Assembly (NCBI GenBank): GCA_024998685.1
Contig: JACOEH010000009.1
Location: forward strand, 1 to 64,000
Length of the DNA: 64,000 bases
Reading direction: 5' to 3'
From: Nitrospira sp.
Lineage (GTDB): Bacteria; Nitrospirota; Nitrospiria; Nitrospirales; Nitrospiraceae
Below, piece by piece: positions 318 to 9,637 of this stretch. A program made the translations under genes and the position numbers. Within the stretch, counting starts at the first letter, position 1. Each line of letters begins with the position of its first letter. The notes under the pieces were generated by a model that searched no databases, was not told the origin of the DNA, and saw only the letters and a program-made list of their open reading frames with translations.

Positions 318-479
318 ATGAAAGCCACGAAAGAAACGTATGTCAGACCAGTCCTTACGAAACATGATCTGTTGCGTGACATCACTGCGGCCTATTCCGG
401 CAGCGGCGGTGGTGGCGTAAGAGACCGCATTGAGGATATTGTCTGCCGAGTCTTTCCTCGTCTCCCGCGCTGCAACTGA
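318..479 (+). CDS. 53-aa putative RiPP precursor with lasso-type leader
   Basis: This short ORF starts at ATG 318 behind a strong AGGGAGGTGA ribosome-binding site. Its first half carries Y8-x-x-P11-x-L13, followed by H16, a Leu-Leu-Arg-Asp-Ile stretch and T23. This resembles the leader pattern (YxxPxL ... T) recognised by PqqD-like RRE domains in lasso-peptide systems. The second half is AYSGSGGGG followed by a charged tail with C43 and C52, the latter in an Arg-Cys-Asn C-terminus. In classical lasso leaders the conserved Thr is at -2, so the core would start at A25, but no Asp/Glu then falls at ring position 7-9. A core starting at G28, S29 or G30 would put D36 at position 9, 8 or 7. No B, C or transporter genes of a lasso system lie beside it. 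A terminator follows at 538-574. The leader resemblance is seen; the product class is inference. Confidence 0.6.
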   Translation: MKATKETYVRPVLTKHDLLRDITAAYSGSGGGGVRDRIEDIVCRVFPRLPRCN

Positions 480-490
480 AACTGTCTACT

Positions 491-521
491 CGCTGGTCAG
501 TCGAGCATGGATTGACCAGCG
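491..521. repeat. 9-bp perfect inverted repeat downstream of the peptide gene
   Basis: CGCTGGTCA at 491-499 is the exact reverse complement of TGACCAGCG at 513-521, with a 13-base loop. It lies between the stop codon of the small peptide gene and the terminator, so it could be an RNA hairpin in the 3' untranslated region or a protein-binding site. No T-tract follows it. Confidence 0.5.
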
Positions 522-537
522 CAGCACACCGAGTTAT

Positions 538-574
538 AAGGGCCATCCCCTACAGGGGATGGCCCTTTGTTTTT
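538..574 (+). terminator. Rho-independent terminator of the small peptide gene
   Basis: AAGGGCCATCCCC and GGGGATGGCCCTT form a 13-bp stem around a 4-base loop (538-567), followed by TTTGTTTTT on the plus strand. The T-run is on the plus side only, so this terminates the peptide transcript and not the convergent gene ending at 597. Confidence 0.85.
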
Positions 575-2473: not shown

Positions 2474-3454
2474 ATGGACGTACGGCGGATACAGACTCAG
2501 TTGTGTGTAGTCATTGCTCTTCTGTTGCTGGTTACTTCGTCCGCTCCAAGCTGGGGACAAGACTCTGATCCTCAAGTACGGCCGCGCGTGGAATTATCCG
2601 TAAGGTCGTGGCTGTTTACGTCGGGCGAAACACAATGGAGTCACGATGCTTCCGGACTCGATTCCACATTGGGCGACCCTACCTCTAAACTCACGTATAA
2701 GGACAACGATACCCATCTTGTCGGGCTTGGGGCGAAAGTGCATCTCAATCGTCGGTTATTCTTGGACGGGGAATTCGGCTTCTCCGTCGATTTTGATCGA
2801 GGGTCACTGATCGATGATGATTATCTGACAGGACAACGATTGTTCTCGCGCACAAGCAGCGACATCACCGGGAAGGGAACTTGGTATGTCCAGGCAAATG
2901 CGGGGTATCGTGCAGCTGAATTTCAGAACGGCCGCGGCCATTTCGATGTGCTGGCAGGGTTGCAGTATTGGAGAACGACGTACGAGGCAACCGGGTTTAG
3001 TCGAATCGTGTGCGATTCATCGGTCATTAGTTGCAATCCCCCTGCGTCTCACTTGCCGGCGATCAAGAATACGACTCATTGGATTACGCCGCTCCATGTC
3101 GGAGGACAACTCGAATATCGGGTCACGCAAAGAGTGAGCGCGAATGTGAAGATGACATTTTCGCCCGTCAGCGTCGTCTTCAACGAGGATATCCATTTTC
3201 TACGCGGCGATTTGCAACAGGACCCGAGCTTTTCGATGTGGGGCCTCGGATTAGGTGCAAGCGCCGAACCCTCAATACGTATCAGGCTGACCCGTCATCT
3301 TTCGCTCACAGGTGGGTATCGCGTCATGTGGAACAGGACCTATTATGGTAGATGGGTCAATCATCCCATTGGAAGCGGGTCCGAAAGTGCTCCTCTCCAT
3401 GAGTTTCAAACGATCCGCCATGGCGTCATTGTCGGGCTGACCGGCTCGTTTTAG
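2474..3454 (+). CDS. Predicted outer-membrane beta-barrel protein
   Basis: Exported protein of 326 aa. A signal peptide with the core CVVIALLLLVTSS ends near Trp-Gly-Gln at about residue 28. The rest alternates polar and aromatic residues (VELSVRSWLF, KVHLNRRLFLDGEFGF, WYVQANAGYRA, GGQLEYRVTQ) as expected of transmembrane beta strands, and the chain ends in Phe, typical of BamA-inserted proteins. I could not place it in a named family; resemblance to omptin-like or Pom-type barrels is only general. A TTG codon sits directly before ATG 2474; I prefer the ATG because the purine-rich GGAAGGGA is well spaced for it. It converges with the helicase gene ending at 3475. Confidence 0.7.
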   Translation: MDVRRIQTQLCVVIALLLLVTSSAPSWGQDSDPQVRPRVELSVRSWLFTSGETQWSHDASGLDSTLGDPTSKLTYKDNDTHLVGLGAKVHLNRRLFLDGEFGFSVDFDRGSLIDDDYLTGQRLFSRTSSDITGKGTWYVQANAGYRAAEFQNGRGHFDVLAGLQYWRTTYEATGFSRIVCDSSVISCNPPASHLPAIKNTTHWITPLHVGGQLEYRVTQRVSANVKMTFSPVSVVFNEDIHFLRGDLQQDPSFSMWGLGLGASAEPSIRIRLTRHLSLTGGYRVMWNRTYYGRWVNHPIGSGSESAPLHEFQTIRHGVIVGLTGSF

Positions 3455-3474
3455 ATTACTCAATGATGGATGAG

Positions 3475-4530
3475 CTATCGTCTCGGGCGTCCTGCCGGTA
3501 GAGTTTCTTCTTCATACTCATGGAAGAGTCGCGTGGCCTCTGGATGGAGTTGACTGGGGTGGCCGTAGGGAATCCCGAGCGTTCTGAACAGCGGCGTCAA
3601 TTTCCCGTTGGGATGCAGATAACCGGCTCTGAGGGGCACGGTGCGTTTGCTGTGACGGACGAGCCTGCAGACAGTGGATCGGATCGATGTCAGCCAATCG
3701 GCGATGTCCTCTGGGTTGCCGATCGAAGCGGAGAGCAAAAGGAGTCGAGCCTGCCCAGGACAAAAGATGATGGTTTCTTCCCACACCACTCCTCGCTCCG
3801 GATCGGCAAGGTATTGCGATTCGTCCAAAATCACCAGCCCCAACGTATCCAATCTGACGTCGATCTCCCCGCTGGCGGCATCATAGAGCAGATTTCGCAG
3901 GATCTCCGTCGTCATGATGAGCAGCGGCGCTTGCCCGTTCTCCTGGCGATCTCCGGTGAGAATGCCGACTTTCTCAGGGCCGAAGATTCGAGAAAACTCC
4001 GTATATTTCGTGTTGGATAAGGCCTTGAGCGGCGAGGTGTAAATGACGCTGCGATTGTCTTCCATGGCCCGGCGGGCCGCTTCAACGGCCACATACGTCT
4101 TTCCGCTGCCGGTGGGAACGCTGATCACGACGTCGGTCTCATTCAAAGCGGACAAGGCCTCGCTCTGCCAGGGATCCGGCACAAACGGTTGAGGAGAAGG
4201 AACGCCGAGGCCTTCCAGCCAAGTCGATAGCGAGACGGCGGTTTCAGCAGAATCCGGCTCAGCTCCACGTGGCGATGCTTTCTTATGAACAATCACCGGC
4301 GCACGACGGATGCGGGACGATCCGGCATCCGATCGGGCGTGTTGCCCATCGATCAAGGTCTGGAGATCGGATTCAAGACCGGCACGATTCTGGCTCGAAT
4401 GCTGAAGAAGCAATTCGATCAGCCGCCTCTTGCCGGCACGAAAGTGCCGATGGACGCGTCCACGGGCCAGGCGATGCAAGAGTGCCACGGGTTGCTGTGC
4501 GAGAAGTTTTTCAAGTTCTTCGGTGGTCAT
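3475..4530 (-). CDS. N-terminal (RecA1) half of a split Ski2-like DEAD/DEAH helicase
   Basis: A 351-aa protein with only the first RecA-like domain of a superfamily 2 helicase. Motifs in order are Walker A VPTGSGKT (about 138-145), motif Ia TSPLKALSNTKY (165-176), motif Ib (around 203-215), the Walker B box DESQ (236-239) and motif III SASIGN. After motif III it runs into the LHPNGKLTPLFR linker typical of this family, then stops at about the place where a full-length protein would enter RecA2. Motifs IV-VI are absent here and are encoded in the gene transcribed before it (4618-6477). The two halves together would equal one complete Ski2-like RNA/DNA helicase, but in inverted order. The start at 4530 lacks a clear ribosome-binding site and lies next to a 16-bp tandem duplication. 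Function of the assembled enzyme is inferred. Confidence 0.8.
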   Translation of the reverse strand: MTTEELEKLLAQQPVALLHRLARGRVHRHFRAGKRRLIELLLQHSSQNRAGLESDLQTLIDGQHARSDAGSSRIRRAPVIVHKKASPRGAEPDSAETAVSLSTWLEGLGVPSPQPFVPDPWQSEALSALNETDVVISVPTGSGKTYVAVEAARRAMEDNRSVIYTSPLKALSNTKYTEFSRIFGPEKVGILTGDRQENGQAPLLIMTTEILRNLLYDAASGEIDVRLDTLGLVILDESQYLADPERGVVWEETIIFCPGQARLLLLSASIGNPEDIADWLTSIRSTVCRLVRHSKRTVPLRAGYLHPNGKLTPLFRTLGIPYGHPSQLHPEATRLFHEYEEETLPAGRPRR

Positions 4531-4554
4531 AATTTGAGGTGGTCATGATTTGAA
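4522..4554. repeat. Tandem duplication of 16 bp at the helicase start
   Basis: GGTGGTCATAATTTGAG is followed at once by GGTGGTCATGATTTGAA, two near-identical copies in direct orientation. On the minus strand this produces two successive ATGACCACC stretches, so two possible start codons for the RecA1 gene. Confidence 0.6.
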
Positions 4555-4617
4555 GTGCTGAGGACTGAGTCGCAGGATAGCTCAGTCCTGAAGCCTCGGC
4601 CCTCAGTCCTACACGAC
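4553..4617. repeat. CTCAG-type inverted/direct repeat cluster between the helicase halves
   Basis: AGGACTGAG at 4561-4569 pairs with CTCAGTCCT at 4581-4589, and a second CTCAGTCCT follows at 4602-4610. The preceding AAGTGCTGAG also occurs in the nuoE/nuoCD gap at 38287, so this looks like a dispersed intergenic repeat family. Confidence 0.55.
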
Positions 4618-6477
4618 TCACGGCAGTTCCTCCAACACTCCTCGTCGGATCAACGTGATCGCGTGCGAAGTGGATTCAGCGAGGCCGGGGTGGGTAAATT
4701 TTAAAGCCTGCACTTGTGACAAAAACTCCAAGGTTCTGGCCAATAATCGGTAGATATCGCCTTCTGCCATCGTGGTCAATCGACAGAGTCCGATCCATGT
4801 GAGAGTGGGGTCGGCGATCCAGCGCTCAACCAAGGCCGCCACATCGGCGCGTAGGAGGGGAGGATCTTCGTAGGGAGAGAGACTTTCCGCCAACTTGCGA
4901 ACCTGTCCGAGGAGAGAACTCAGCCCCGGACTGATGCGCGGAAATGCGCCGGGACGGTCATCATCGTGGGCCAAACTGGCCAAGACGCCGGCGAGGAGGG
5001 ACGGATCTGCTCCCGTAAAGGCTTCAGCGCGGATCAGTTCGGTAATCAGCAGCGAATGATCGATCCGGATAAGCCTCGCCCACTCCCCATCCGCCGTCAA
5101 TTGTGTCGCCGGGCTGAGATACCCGAATTTCTGCAGCACTTCCACTCGCTCCTGGAAGCGATGCCACAAACTGGTCCGCAGCGCTTGTATGGATTTCGTA
5201 TGGCGCTGTTGCTCCTGGCGAAGTCGCGACGCAGTCGTGAAGTCTTTCTGACAGGCTGGTCGCGAAGAACACGTCGGGCAGGGAAAGTCACCCAACGATT
5301 GGACGATGGCATCAGACAACGGTTCGAGACCGGTCGATACGAGGATGGGCAGCACGGGTAAACGCGGCGGAAGTTCTTCCAATTGATGACTCAATCGATC
5401 GAACGTTCCGGTGGAACACCAAGGATAGGTCGGCGTCTCCGCGAAGTCGTATGTGCGGTCGTAGACTTCCTTCACGCTGGTGACAGGGCATTCGGTGACG
5501 GCGTTGTCCGGTCGTAAGACGGTGAGCATGGAATTCTTTTGCCCCTTACTCCGATATTGCCGGAGCACAATCCCCCGGCCTCTGCCGAGTCCTACGACAC
5601 GCCCCGGCGTCAGGAACGGCAACCTGGCTGAAATCTCCGGCGATTCGGACCGGTGTGTCTGATGTCGCGTGTGGCGGTGTCTTCGCGCGTGGTCGAAGGT
5701 GTGCCATTGGGTGATCCAGTCCGTGCAGACGCGGGGACCGAACGGTTCCATCTGCCCATGCAGTGCGTCCAGTTTTTGCTCGAGGAGTTCAGCGCGCTGA
5801 TTCAATTGGAATTGAGCGAAACTCTTGGCCAAGATTCCTTGAATCTGCTCATGGGGATGGGCCTTTAACAGGTTCAAGACCATCGGGTAGCTGATGGTAA
5901 ACTGGCTGTCGATGGCCTCCGGCTGTCCGGTCAATCCTTTGGTCAGAACCATCAGATCGATATACGGAGAGGGAGTCACGATCGCAAATCCCACATGATC
6001 TTTTCCGCGGCGGCCGGCTCGTCCGGCGATCTGCTGGACTTCGCCGATGGTCAAGTCGGTGAAGTCACGGGACTTGCGGATGCTCGATTGTGTGATCACG
6101 ACCGTGCGGGCTGGAAAATCGACACCCGCCGCCAAGGTCGTCGTTGCGAATACCGCATCGAGATGACCTTGTCGCATCAGCTCCTCGACGGCGATTTTCC
6201 AAGAAGGCAGATGCCCGGCATGATGGGCGGCAATGCCGACCCGCCTCACGATAGGAATCAAGGGGTGCTCGGCAATGCTGGGGTGCTGAGTCATGACCCG
6301 TTCGAGCGCGACGGCGATCGCCTCCTGTCGTGCCGGAGGGAGCACGAGATCGGCGTGGTCGAAGGTCTCCATGGCCTCGTCACAGGCCCGGCGTGAGGTG
6401 AGAAACACGATGGCCGGCGTGAGATGCTTGTGGCGGAGCGCAGTGATGAGATCAACCGGATGGATCGACGGAGGCAT
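4618..6477 (-). CDS. C-terminal (RecA2 plus accessory) half of a split Ski2-like helicase
   Basis: A 619-aa protein that begins directly with the RecA2 domain. Motif IV PAIVFLTSRRACDEA is at about 21-35, then the AAHHAGHLP loop, motif V TTTLAAGVDFPAR (about 112-124) and motif VI QQIAGRAGRRG (about 147-157). The remaining 450 residues resemble the winged-helix/ratchet region of Ski2/Mtr4-like enzymes and include a Cys cluster (CPTC...C). There is no Walker A or DExH motif, so it cannot hydrolyse ATP alone. It overlaps the end of glgC by 26 bp and lies upstream of the RecA1 gene (3475-4530), the reverse of the order within a normal single-chain helicase. The natural reading is that the two products associate, but this is inference. 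Confidence 0.8.
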   Translation of the reverse strand: MPPSIHPVDLITALRHKHLTPAIVFLTSRRACDEAMETFDHADLVLPPARQEAIAVALERVMTQHPSIAEHPLIPIVRRVGIAAHHAGHLPSWKIAVEELMRQGHLDAVFATTTLAAGVDFPARTVVITQSSIRKSRDFTDLTIGEVQQIAGRAGRRGKDHVGFAIVTPSPYIDLMVLTKGLTGQPEAIDSQFTISYPMVLNLLKAHPHEQIQGILAKSFAQFQLNQRAELLEQKLDALHGQMEPFGPRVCTDWITQWHTFDHARRHRHTRHQTHRSESPEISARLPFLTPGRVVGLGRGRGIVLRQYRSKGQKNSMLTVLRPDNAVTECPVTSVKEVYDRTYDFAETPTYPWCSTGTFDRLSHQLEELPPRLPVLPILVSTGLEPLSDAIVQSLGDFPCPTCSSRPACQKDFTTASRLRQEQQRHTKSIQALRTSLWHRFQERVEVLQKFGYLSPATQLTADGEWARLIRIDHSLLITELIRAEAFTGADPSLLAGVLASLAHDDDRPGAFPRISPGLSSLLGQVRKLAESLSPYEDPPLLRADVAALVERWIADPTLTWIGLCRLTTMAEGDIYRLLARTLEFLSQVQALKFTHPGLAESTSHAITLIRRGVLEELP

Positions 6478-7690
6478 GCAGCTTCATTCCCTTTGAGATG
6501 ACCACGAGGCCTGATTCAGTGACGGTAAACCGTTGCATGTCGGCCTCTCGGTTGTACCCGATTTCCGTCTGAGGAGGAAGCGTCACATCCTTGTCGATGA
6601 TGGCGCGTCTGATGCGGCTCTGCGCGCCGATGGTCACATTTTCCATGATAATGGACTCCCGGACATCCGCATGGTCTTGCACGCGGACATTGGGGGATAA
6701 AACAGAATTCTGGACCCGTCCGCCCGACACGATGCAGCCGCCGCAGACGATCGAATCGAGGGCGACTCCCATTCGCCCTCCTTGGAAATCCTGTGCGAAG
6801 ACGAACTTGGCCGGCGGAAACTGTCCTTGATAGGTTCGGATCGGCCATTCGGAGTCGTACAGGTTGAATTGAGGATCGACGGCGACCAAATCCATGTTCG
6901 CTTCCCAGTAGGCGTCGAGCGTCCCGATATCGCGCCAGTACTGCACGGCCTTTTTGTTGGCATCTTGAAATTTGAAGGCGTAGACACGCCCCTGTTCGAT
7001 CATTCTGGGAATGATATTTTTCCCGAAGTCATGCGCGCTGCCCTCTCGTGCATCGGCGATCAGGTGTTCGCGGAGCGCTTTTGTGCGGAACAGGTAAATG
7101 CCCATCGACGCAAAGGCATGAGCGGGATCGTTGGGGAGCGGAATGGGATGCGCCGGCTTTTCATCGAAGCGGGTAATCCGGTAGTCTTCGTCCACCGCGA
7201 TGACTCCGAAGCGGGTGGCTTCCTGGACGGGAATGTCGAGGGCACCGACGACCGCATCCGCGCTCTTGGCGATGAGCCAGTGGTACATCTCCGCATAGTT
7301 CATCTTGTAAATGTGATCGCCGGCGAGGATCAGCAGGAACTCCGGCTGCTCACCATCGATCAAGAACAGATTCTGATACACGGCGTCGGCGGTGCCGCGG
7401 TACCAATCTTCGCTGATGCGCTGTTGAGGAGGGACTGAGGCGATATATTCGCCTAGTTCCGCGTTGAGAATATTCCAGCCGACCCGGATATGGCGATCGA
7501 GCGAGTGCGACTTGTATTGAATGAGCACGACGATCTGACGGAATCCTGAGTTCAAGCAATTGCTTAAGGTGAAGTCAATGATACGATACTTCCCGCCGAA
7601 AGGGACAGCCGGCTTCGCGCGTTGGTCCGTCAACGGAAAGAGTCGCTCGCCTTTCCCGCCGGCCAATACCATCGTGAAAATGTTCTTCAT
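6452..7690 (-). CDS. glgC: Glucose-1-phosphate adenylyltransferase
   Basis: ADP-glucose pyrophosphorylase, which makes ADP-glucose from glucose-1-phosphate and ATP for glycogen synthesis. The open frame extends upstream to 7927, but the family start is the ATG at 7690, giving 412 aa. The nucleotide-binding signature GGKGERLFPLT lies at about residues 10-20, followed by RAKPAVPFGGKYRIIDF. The substrate-binding DEKPAHP segment and a C-terminal left-handed beta-helix region (ENVTIGAQSRI, hexapeptide style) are present. The extra 79 codons upstream have no family resemblance and overlap the region before the divergent plus-strand gene. The gene is translationally close to the helicase half downstream (26-bp overlap). 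It pairs functionally with the glucan phosphorylase at 45971-48493. Confidence 0.93.
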   Translation of the reverse strand: MKNIFTMVLAGGKGERLFPLTDQRAKPAVPFGGKYRIIDFTLSNCLNSGFRQIVVLIQYKSHSLDRHIRVGWNILNAELGEYIASVPPQQRISEDWYRGTADAVYQNLFLIDGEQPEFLLILAGDHIYKMNYAEMYHWLIAKSADAVVGALDIPVQEATRFGVIAVDEDYRITRFDEKPAHPIPLPNDPAHAFASMGIYLFRTKALREHLIADAREGSAHDFGKNIIPRMIEQGRVYAFKFQDANKKAVQYWRDIGTLDAYWEANMDLVAVDPQFNLYDSEWPIRTYQGQFPPAKFVFAQDFQGGRMGVALDSIVCGGCIVSGGRVQNSVLSPNVRVQDHADVRESIIMENVTIGAQSRIRRAIIDKDVTLPPQTEIGYNREADMQRFTVTESGLVVISKGMKLHASVDPSG

Positions 7691-7826
7691 CGGCCGAATT
7701 CTAGCAGGACCTCTACGAAATAGAAAGGAAGGGGAATCGTTGACTTCCCGTTCTATGCGGATAATACTAGGCCCAGCCCCGGTCGTGCGTGCCGGCTCGA
7801 AAGGAGCCTGAAGTAAAGGAGTCAGC

Positions 7827-8126
7827 ATGAAGCGAGATGTCGTTGTCGCCGCGCTCCCTCGAAGCACCAACAGACGAGTGACGAAGCTTCCGACGAAGTC
7901 CTCCGCCAGGTCCTTGAACGATGTCACATGGCGTCTGGAGAGGTTGGAAGGGCAGATGCAAAAACTGTCCGAACTTGTTCGGGATCATGCTGAAGATATG
8001 GATCGTCTGGTGAAAATTGTCGCAGAAAACAGCGATATCATCCGCCGGCAGTTGCTTCGGAAACATCATGAGAAAGTTCGGGTGAGGAAACATTTGCGGG
8101 AGGTAGACGCTTCCACGGAATGTTGA
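7827..8126 (+). CDS. Small coiled-coil protein of unknown function
   Basis: A 99-aa basic protein with a good ribosome-binding site (AAAGGAG, 5-6 bases before ATG). Residues about 35-70 (WRLERLEGQMQKLSELV ...) show heptad spacing of Leu/Met/Val, so a coiled coil is likely. No signal peptide or membrane segment. It is divergent from glgC, and its upstream region covers the spurious N-terminal extension of the glgC frame. I do not recognise a family. Confidence 0.6.
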   Translation: MKRDVVVAALPRSTNRRVTKLPTKSSARSLNDVTWRLERLEGQMQKLSELVRDHAEDMDRLVKIVAENSDIIRRQLLRKHHEKVRVRKHLREVDASTEC

Positions 8127-8311: not shown

Positions 8312-9637
8312 ATGGTTCAACGACTACGTATTGCCTCCCTCTGCCTCGCCGTCTCAATCGGGAGTTCCGTTGGCGGTGAGTCCTTGTCAGCCGGGCAGGT
8401 GATGAGCGTCGCTTCGGCTGAAGCCCCAGCGGTTGCCGTACCCTCAGCACGTCCTCTACGCATGAGCCTCGAAGAGGCGATCGGACTCTTTCTCCGCCAA
8501 AATCTCGACCTATTAATCGCGAAATACGGGATTGCGTTCAGCAAGGGACAACAGATTACCGCCCGACTGTTTCCGAATCCCGTCGCCTCAATGGGACTGG
8601 TGAGCTCGCCGGTCCAGGGCCGCACGCTGGGGAACAGCGGACAGGTTTTCCCTCAGATCCAGCAGTTGTTTGAGTTGGCGGGTAAACGAGGGTATCGGAT
8701 CGAGAGCGCGGAATACGGACTGCAGTCTGCGGAGGCCGCCTTTGAAGATGCCGTTCGGCAACTGAGTTTCGCCGTCAAGGATGCCTACTACCGTGTCCAA
8801 CTGGCGCGGAGACGGCTGGCATTGGCGGAGGAAAATAGAGATCGGTTCTCGCGGATTCTCGAGGTCAATACGATTCGATTCAAGAAGGGGTTTATTGCCG
8901 AGGTGGATTTGATCCGTATCCGGTTGCAGTTTATCGACTTTCACTCGCAAGTGATTCTGGCCATTCAAGAAGCGCAGTCGGCTCGATCGGATCTTCGACA
9001 ATTGTTGCGGTCTTCGCCGGCGAGCGACCTGGAACTGACCACCGAACTGGATTACAAGCGGGTGGATCCGGACATCGTCAAGCTCCGTACTGTGGCCATC
9101 GACGCGCGCCCCGATGTTCGCACAAAGCGGATGACGCTGTCACAGCGCGAGGCCGAACTGAAGCTCGCCAAAGCATACCGGATTCCCGATGTCACCGTCG
9201 GCGCGGGCTACGCCGTTCAAGGCCCGCATGGACCCGACAATTCTAATCAGATGGAGTTCAGTCTCGGCATGCCGCTGCCGTTGTTCAACCGCAACCAAGG
9301 CGGTATCATGCAGGCGGAGGCTGCGATGCAGGTTGCAGGAGCTGACCTCGGCAAGACGTTGAATCAAGTCGAGAATCAAGTAGACGTCGCCTATCGCAAC
9401 TTGATCGAAAGTCGTCGATTGGTCGAAGCGTTCCTGGGAGGGGTGCTTGATGATGCGCGCTCGACGATTGCGATCGTCGAGCGCGCCTATGAACGGGGTG
9501 GAGTCACTCTGCTTGATTTGCTCGATGCCGCGAGGACGTCGAGGACGATTCAGCAAAACTATATTGAAGCCTTGTTCAATTACCAACGGAATGTGATTCA
9601 ACTGGAGAGTGCCGTCGGACAGGAACTCGCATCATGA
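8312..9637 (+). CDS. TolC-family outer-membrane efflux protein (CzcC/CusC type)
   Basis: Outer-membrane channel of a tripartite heavy-metal or drug efflux pump. The open frame begins at 8243, but the signal peptide (MVQRLRIASLCLAVSIG) begins at the ATG at 8312, which I take as the start, giving 441 aa. Two OEP repeats are recognisable by SLEEAIGLFLRQN near the N-terminus and the long amphipathic helices with QLARRRLALAEENRDR and EAELKLAKAYRIPDV. It is followed by the adaptor gene (9678) and the RND pump (10914) on the same strand, forming a CzcCBA-like operon. The substrate cannot be read from this protein. Confidence 0.85.
   Translation: MVQRLRIASLCLAVSIGSSVGGESLSAGQVMSVASAEAPAVAVPSARPLRMSLEEAIGLFLRQNLDLLIAKYGIAFSKGQQITARLFPNPVASMGLVSSPVQGRTLGNSGQVFPQIQQLFELAGKRGYRIESAEYGLQSAEAAFEDAVRQLSFAVKDAYYRVQLARRRLALAEENRDRFSRILEVNTIRFKKGFIAEVDLIRIRLQFIDFHSQVILAIQEAQSARSDLRQLLRSSPASDLELTTELDYKRVDPDIVKLRTVAIDARPDVRTKRMTLSQREAELKLAKAYRIPDVTVGAGYAVQGPHGPDNSNQMEFSLGMPLPLFNRNQGGIMQAEAAMQVAGADLGKTLNQVENQVDVAYRNLIESRRLVEAFLGGVLDDARSTIAIVERAYERGGVTLLDLLDAARTSRTIQQNYIEALFNYQRNVIQLESAVGQELAS

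Follow-up and report, generated by a model that had tools for sequence, protein, structure and literature searches.

A precursor peptide gene at the edge of a contig

The window analyzed here is a stretch of 64,000 nucleotides from a Nitrospira genome (G000), corresponding to positions 1–64000 of contig G000:C13. Close to its start lies a precursor peptide gene, A (318–479, + strand), an open reading frame encoding 53 aa (MKATKETYVRPVLTKHDLLRDITAAYSGSGGGGVRDRIEDIVCRVFPRLPRCN) that is supported by homologs and by a leader profile. The signals that the first-pass annotation had described for this 53-codon frame are borne out: a good ribosome-binding site, GGGAGGT (302–308, +), can be read directly from the sequence with the ATG 9 nt downstream, and the gene is followed by its own intrinsic terminator (538–573, +), formed by a 13-pair hairpin (538–567; −27.2 kcal/mol, z −5.6) and a T-run. 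Further upstream, a four-genome comparison revealed a conserved element, TTTAGAGGTAAAG-CAATACCA (185–205, +), an imperfect inverted repeat of the form CTTTA-GAGG-TAAAG. With up to four substitutions allowed, the window, G023, G001, and L101 all have this element ahead of the orthologous precursor, no other locus in the comparison has it, and in G017 it has diverged; it is a possible operator or 5′-UTR element.

Whole-length homologs of the peptide were recovered from G023 (90% identity; complete genome, E = 2.6e-24), G001 (75%), and G017 (54%), with a further ortholog on a contig of Nitrospira sp. isolate GZL_ISSM_2_bin.53 (L101). Across the 10 pairs formed by the five orthologs, pN/pS ranged from 0.18 to 0.73 for the whole gene, from 0.10 to 0.46 for the leaders, and from 0.13 to 1.19 for the cores; on comparative grounds, the frame is a real gene under purifying selection. 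Searches with the 53-aa peptide returned no Pfam family, and its sole NCBIfam match was a sub-threshold hit to lasso_cyano; the leader profile matched no PDB chain, and an Rfam search of the whole window gave no match. Convergent to the precursor lie two secreted or lipoprotein genes (597–1304 and 1367–1981, both −), whose C-termini read as Fn3-like; the pair is kept beside the precursor in G023, G001, and G017, and may represent unrelated neighbors.

The partner operon apparently lies across a contig break

The precursor ATG has 317 nt of contig upstream of it (window position 1 is C13 position 1), and the contig begins with an insertion-sequence-like end (1–55, unstranded) carrying an inverted terminal repeat at 41–55, the reverse of AACCTGAATCCTGCG. 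This 15-mer occurs in nine copies in the G000 genome, six of which sit 36–55 nt from a contig start, while the copy on contig C59 lies 36 nt from the contig end in the orientation opposite to that of the window copy. Homology of the window to G023 and L101 restarts directly after the repeat, and on both sides of the repeat the flanking sequence, from C59 and from C13, can be matched to the intergenic region of G023. On C59 (L067) we found an operon of five genes: B1 (2807–3238), K (3292–4353), N (4350–5573), B2 (5563–6078), and an ABC exporter (6095–7912). In the single-contig genome G023 (locus L032), the precursor comes next after B1, K, N, B2, and the ABC gene, with its ATG ~310 nt past the last of these, and in L101, K, N, B2, ABC, and the precursor are all on one contig. 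The partner operon was apparently split from the precursor by an insertion-sequence copy between C59 and C13, a join that rests on synteny with relatives and not on reads.

The gene had initially been described as an orphan with no cyclase, protease, or RRE gene beside it. We reject the orphan status, since a contig break separates the precursor from its operon: the partner genes looked missing because the contig ends beside the precursor, whose upstream neighbors in G023 and L101 are the partner operon, found on C59 in G000. The description of the neighborhood stands with respect to the cyclase, whereas for the protease and the RRE it is true only inside the window, where the contig ends; RRE-containing proteins, for which a genome-wide check had been proposed, were found in G000. 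The same genome also holds a second cluster on contig C78 (L031), with its own 51-aa precursor.

The gap between exporter and precursor is also interrupted in relatives. The G001 contig likewise breaks there, at a different repeat, and in G017 (L034) transposase-like genes sit between the two. Different mobile or repeat elements were observed in this gap in L034 (~9.9–11.2 kb), at the L067/window junction, and at the L068/L033 junction; with three orthologous loci affected, the gap looks like a hot spot for insertions.

Sequence and structural features of the partner proteins

The family scores given here refer to the G023 and C78 proteins, and the C59 proteins were assigned with profiles made from these families; the conservation counts for K and B2 come from a tally of distinct sequences with bit-score floors of 400 for K and N, 150 for B2, and 100 for B1. 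B1 is a PqqD-family RRE (PF05402, E = 2.9e-19). Among solved RREs, its sequence matches PbaB1 (2.7e-8) and TbiB1 (3.2e-6), with LppB weaker at 1.7e-3; by this measure B1 is nearer to lasso RREs than to LppB. In an alignment to 9x8z_B, the Asn equivalent to LppB N33 is present in 54/54 distinct B1 proteins and the Asp equivalent to D70 in 51 of the 54. B2 scores 46.4 bits against the lasso B2 model NF033537, above its cut-off of 33, and keeps Cys87 and His121 in all 39 sequences. The exporter is an MsbA-like ABC protein.

K is HprK-like at sub-threshold scores, reaching 58 bits against TIGR04352 (HprK_rel_A; cut-off 200) and 30.1 against PF07475 (cut-off 33.3). Its H168, P-loop GxSGxGKT, and DD206–207 are invariant (47/47), and the AlphaFold model of a relative (L079, pLDDT 86.5) superimposes on HPr kinase 1ko7 with Z 13.0 at 2.6 Å over 134 residues, and on the related PEPCK fold with Z ~15. 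A K query against plasmids gave no match. N is a PF14907 nucleotidyltransferase (E = 1.1e-61); a sequence search against PDB found no chain, and a model (L101, pLDDT 88.2) matched nucleotidyltransferase folds, with ANT(2'')-Ia at E = 4e-4 and FKRP and MenAT1 weaker.

Leader, core, and a conserved serine

The predicted leader comprises residues 1–24 (318–389, +) and follows the pattern KExYVxPxLxKHxLLRDITA, marked by Y8, P11, L13, H16, L19, D21, and T23. Among 22 diverse precursors, K5, Y8, P11, H16, L19, D21, and T23 are invariant, and the consensus of the Nitrospira leader reads YxxPx[LV]xKHxLLRDITAxxS. Lasso leaders are cleaved with Thr at position −2, and by this rule the leader would end after A24, placing the putative core at residues 25–53 (390–476, +; AYSGSGGGGVRDRIEDIVCRVFPRLPRCN). 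The core has two Cys, both kept in 5/5 orthologs. Because the lasso Thr(−2) rule is applied, with B2 replacing an SpI-like peptidase, the invariant Ser27 (codon 396–398, +) becomes core residue 3; it is the proposed phosphorylation site, by virtue of its conservation and of the core S3 precedent in linear polyphosphorylated peptides (LPPs) discussed below.

Conservation of this serine was assessed in a set of 83 precursors, excluding the degenerate-leader ORFs L042 12350, L038 3919, and L034 16101 as well as the window's own peptide; the loci come from two collections that partly overlap in genomes, and exact duplicates were collapsed. Ser occupies core position 3 in 48 of 51 distinct ITA-type precursors, with Ser making up 8.4% of all core residues. 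The other core positions in these precursors are mostly variable. Gly at core 4 (44/51) is nearly as conserved, so conservation of the Ser–Gly pair might have a different cause. VTA-type precursors carry an invariant Ser at core 4 (16/16), and in TG-type precursors core 3 is Tyr in 8/16, Ser in 7/16, and Pro in 1/16. Phosphorylation of a C-terminal Ser, as in paeninodin, was rejected, since the window core ends in Asn and a single ITA-type core of the 51 ends in Ser.

The clusters lack a lasso cyclase

Given the lasso-type B1 RRE, B2 peptidase, and YxxPxL...T leader, we considered whether the gene encodes a true lasso peptide whose cyclase lies elsewhere in the genome. Lasso-type cyclases (NF033535, E ≤ 1e-85) were detected in 10 of 79 genus genomes; seven of the 33 genomes with K have one, placed on another contig or ~2.5 Mb off (G090). 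A lasso-like core is also found in part of the family, as 12/51 ITA-type precursors, mostly from ATP-grasp clusters, combine a small residue at core 1 with Asp or Glu at core 7–9. Against these points, at the same threshold no such cyclase was found in G000 or in the other genomes that make up the remaining 69/79. The four large PF00733 proteins of G000 have exopolysaccharide amidotransferase or asparagine synthase as their best models; the genome has two further PF00733 matches, both short. Across 66 scanned loci, cyclase-scale matches (~1000 bits) were confined to three lasso control loci (L070–L072), the rest giving no cyclase match or 38–43 bits at genes read as PurF-like, apart from L032, where an exopolysaccharide-type gene ~4 kb before B1 scores 90 bits. 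The window core, AYSGSGGGG, has no Asp or Glu at positions 7–9 and is therefore without a lasso acceptor acid. With no cyclase in the cluster or, at this threshold, in G000, and no acceptor acid, we reject a true lasso product, a reading we regard as highly improbable. For L070 and L071, which are genuine lasso loci, no precursors were recognized nearby.

These results agree with much of the first-pass annotation, which had read the gene as a RiPP precursor with a lasso-type leader (Y8, P11, and T23 are indeed invariant in the 22 precursors), had noted a core that does not fit a lasso, and had offered an RRE-dependent, non-lasso class as an option, now matched by an operon with an RRE and a missing cyclase. 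Its proposed comparison with NCBIfam lasso-leader models gave a match to NF033528, albeit at 15.1, under the cut-off of 33, and the peptide that it expected to be conserved is kept in G023, G001, and G017, with its family found by leader profile in 31/79 genus genomes.

Comparison with linear polyphosphorylated peptides and other known systems

The closest precedent for the Nitrospira system is provided by the LPPs, described in 2026 from the lpp cluster of Paenibacillus alginolyticus (PMC13381572). LPP clusters hold the same set without a macrolactam cyclase and with an SpI-like peptidase; the leader reads YxxPxVLxHQxIxFETxxS and is cleaved after T(−1), LppB N33 and D70 hold Tyr leaders, and core S3 is a proven phosphorylation site in Bacillota, bearing kinase-dependent phosphates (PMC13381572). 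The same account reports no detectable activity of LppN in its own system and gives LPPs as restricted to Bacillota (PMC13381572). Measured against this account, the Nitrospira clusters share a discrete RRE, an HprK-like kinase, an NTP transferase, an MsbA-like exporter, and the lack of a macrolactam cyclase; a YxxP leader with Thr near its end and, beyond it, a Ser at core position 3 (by our placement of the core start in Nitrospira); hypervariable cores with one to several precursors per cluster; and a B1 that keeps the Tyr-fixing Asn and Asp equivalents of N33 and D70.

They differ from the described LPPs in several respects. The peptidase is a transglutaminase-like B2 instead of the SpI-like LppS, and G000 has no match to the SpI-like model (TIGR02228, E ≤ 1e-5), B2 standing in its place. 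Further, the Ser lies four residues after the Thr in Nitrospira but three in LPPs, the RRE is by sequence nearer to those of lasso clusters, the phylum is not Bacillota, and ATP-grasp, hydroxylase, or radical SAM genes are present in addition in some Nitrospira variants. The Nitrospira system would therefore work like an LPP system while falling outside the LPP definition on its peptidase, and it may have arisen independently.

Two other groups share part of this composition. Paeninodin- and pseudomycoidin-type lasso clusters have B1, B2, an HprK-like K, N, an ABC exporter, and a lasso-type leader, and in pseudomycoidin the nucleotidyltransferase attaches hexoses (PMC8498205); the Nitrospira system differs in having no cyclase, no C-terminal Ser, no acceptor acid in the window core, and Tyr rather than Trp in the motif. 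The SynChlorMet and HprK_rel_A cassettes (NCBIfam TIGR04248, TIGR04249, and TIGR04352) show the same pairing of PqqD-like and HprK-like proteins, with weak similarity to B1 and K, but the scores are far below the curated cut-offs, and the window's cluster has no ScmE/ScmF-like radical SAM gene. Lasso-like RREs that lack a peptidase and cyclase had been recorded by the thousand with RRE-Finder (PMC7470986), and RiPP clusters of Nitrospira had been counted, without naming, at several in each genome surveyed (PMC9765116). Our search of open-licence papers found the Nitrospira system reported here described in none of them.

A proposed linear, phosphorylated product

Taken with the operon composition, these comparisons lead us to favor, with a probability of roughly two in three, a reading in which the product of the gene matures, by leader cleavage and probably by phosphorylation, into a linear RiPP, with LPP-like action and lasso-type B1/B2 processing. 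In the proposed pathway, B1, as a discrete PqqD-type RRE, would bind the leader motif Y8-x2-P11-x-L13, and the HprK-like kinase K would then phosphorylate the invariant Ser27 (core Ser3), after which N (PF14907) may put a nucleotide or sugar-phosphate group on the Ser27 phosphate. The transglutaminase-like peptidase B2 would cleave after T23-A24, and the MsbA-like ABC protein would carry out export, after which the two Cys of the peptide may pair in an extracellular disulfide. The pathway would form no macrolactam ring at any step. An envelope or biofilm role for the peptide would be a guess.

Phyletic distribution and cluster variants

Of the 79 genus genomes, 33 have K, as do 64 of the 395 genomes sampled across the phylum, mostly from the same family. 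The leader profile matched 33/79 genus genomes, of which 31 were convincing; the matches in G074 and G078 were weak, with an in-frame stop, and were counted as chance. All 31 genomes with a convincing precursor also carry K, and the two genomes with K and no precursor, G004 and G088, both have K at a contig edge.

The operon frame recurs with additional enzymes in several genomes. G021, G024, G025, G029, and G032 combine a B1-A-K-N-B2-ABC set with a second set of two ATP-grasp genes (TIGR04187-like), two fatty-acid-hydroxylase-like genes, and TG-type precursors, while in G007 and G033 a set includes a radical SAM gene and precursors ending in AFFGSFRP or AFFGTFRPK. Such sister clusters, sharing the same frame, lend some weight to an alternative in which the core is modified chiefly by another, trans-acting enzyme encoded at a distant site in the genome, such as an ATP-grasp or radical SAM protein, with K and N as accessories; yet these genes are absent from the window's cluster and its close relatives (L031, L032, L034, L067, and L068), where K and N are present, and we consider this alternative quite improbable. 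Among individual loci, L038, L039, L040, L041, and L042 have the ATP-grasp and fatty-acid-hydroxylase-like gene pairs, which come with dedicated precursors and another B1/K/N set; we saw no description of this kind of RiPP cluster. L050 (7703–12023) and L048 (4511–8378) place a radical SAM gene with B1, B2, K, N, and a short AFFGSFRP/AFFGTFRPK precursor, B2 in L048 being marked by a profile match only.

A third arrangement, typified by N. defluvii (e.g. L112, FP929003.1), comprises B2, B1, A, K, and N, with cores of 9–13 residues, mostly of the form IQLSRVxxxxx, and no ABC gene recognized inside the loci. Short cores without a recognized exporter would suit a phosphorylated peptide that serves mainly as a signal or regulator and not as an exported antimicrobial natural product. 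The window's cluster, however, has an ABC exporter and hypervariable cores, fitting a secreted specialized peptide, and we judge the signaling role unlikely here.

Returning to the linear phosphopeptide, a broader scenario, which we put forward tentatively and short of an outright preference, is that cyclase-free phosphopeptide RiPPs arose in Nitrospira independently of those in Bacillota, the lasso frame of B1, B2, kinase, transferase, and exporter being kept while the ring-forming step was dropped or exchanged, with one leader system leading to several chemistries in one genus (phosphorylation only, ATP-grasp plus hydroxylation, and radical SAM). If true, linear phosphopeptide RiPPs would not be confined to Bacillota and could be built with lasso-type processing. 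Nitrospira, a genus of central nitrite oxidizers and comammox bacteria whose natural products are little studied, would then provide a natural series, a single leader/RRE/peptidase set being combined with different modification enzymes, so that how RiPP classes switch chemistry becomes directly testable.

Two side observations concern peptides at other loci. A Methylomirabilota contig (L117) holds two leader-like ORFs, LTKHKPLRDITA and LTKHKLLRDITG (924–1049 and 2509–2634), with no B1, K, or B2 near them. On the Ca. Nitrospira defluvii chromosome (FP929003.1), L112 encodes a 37-aa precursor (8986–9099) with a 12-residue core, IQLSRVLDRTPA, beside B1, B2, K, and N, and short cores related to it occur in several Nitrospira.
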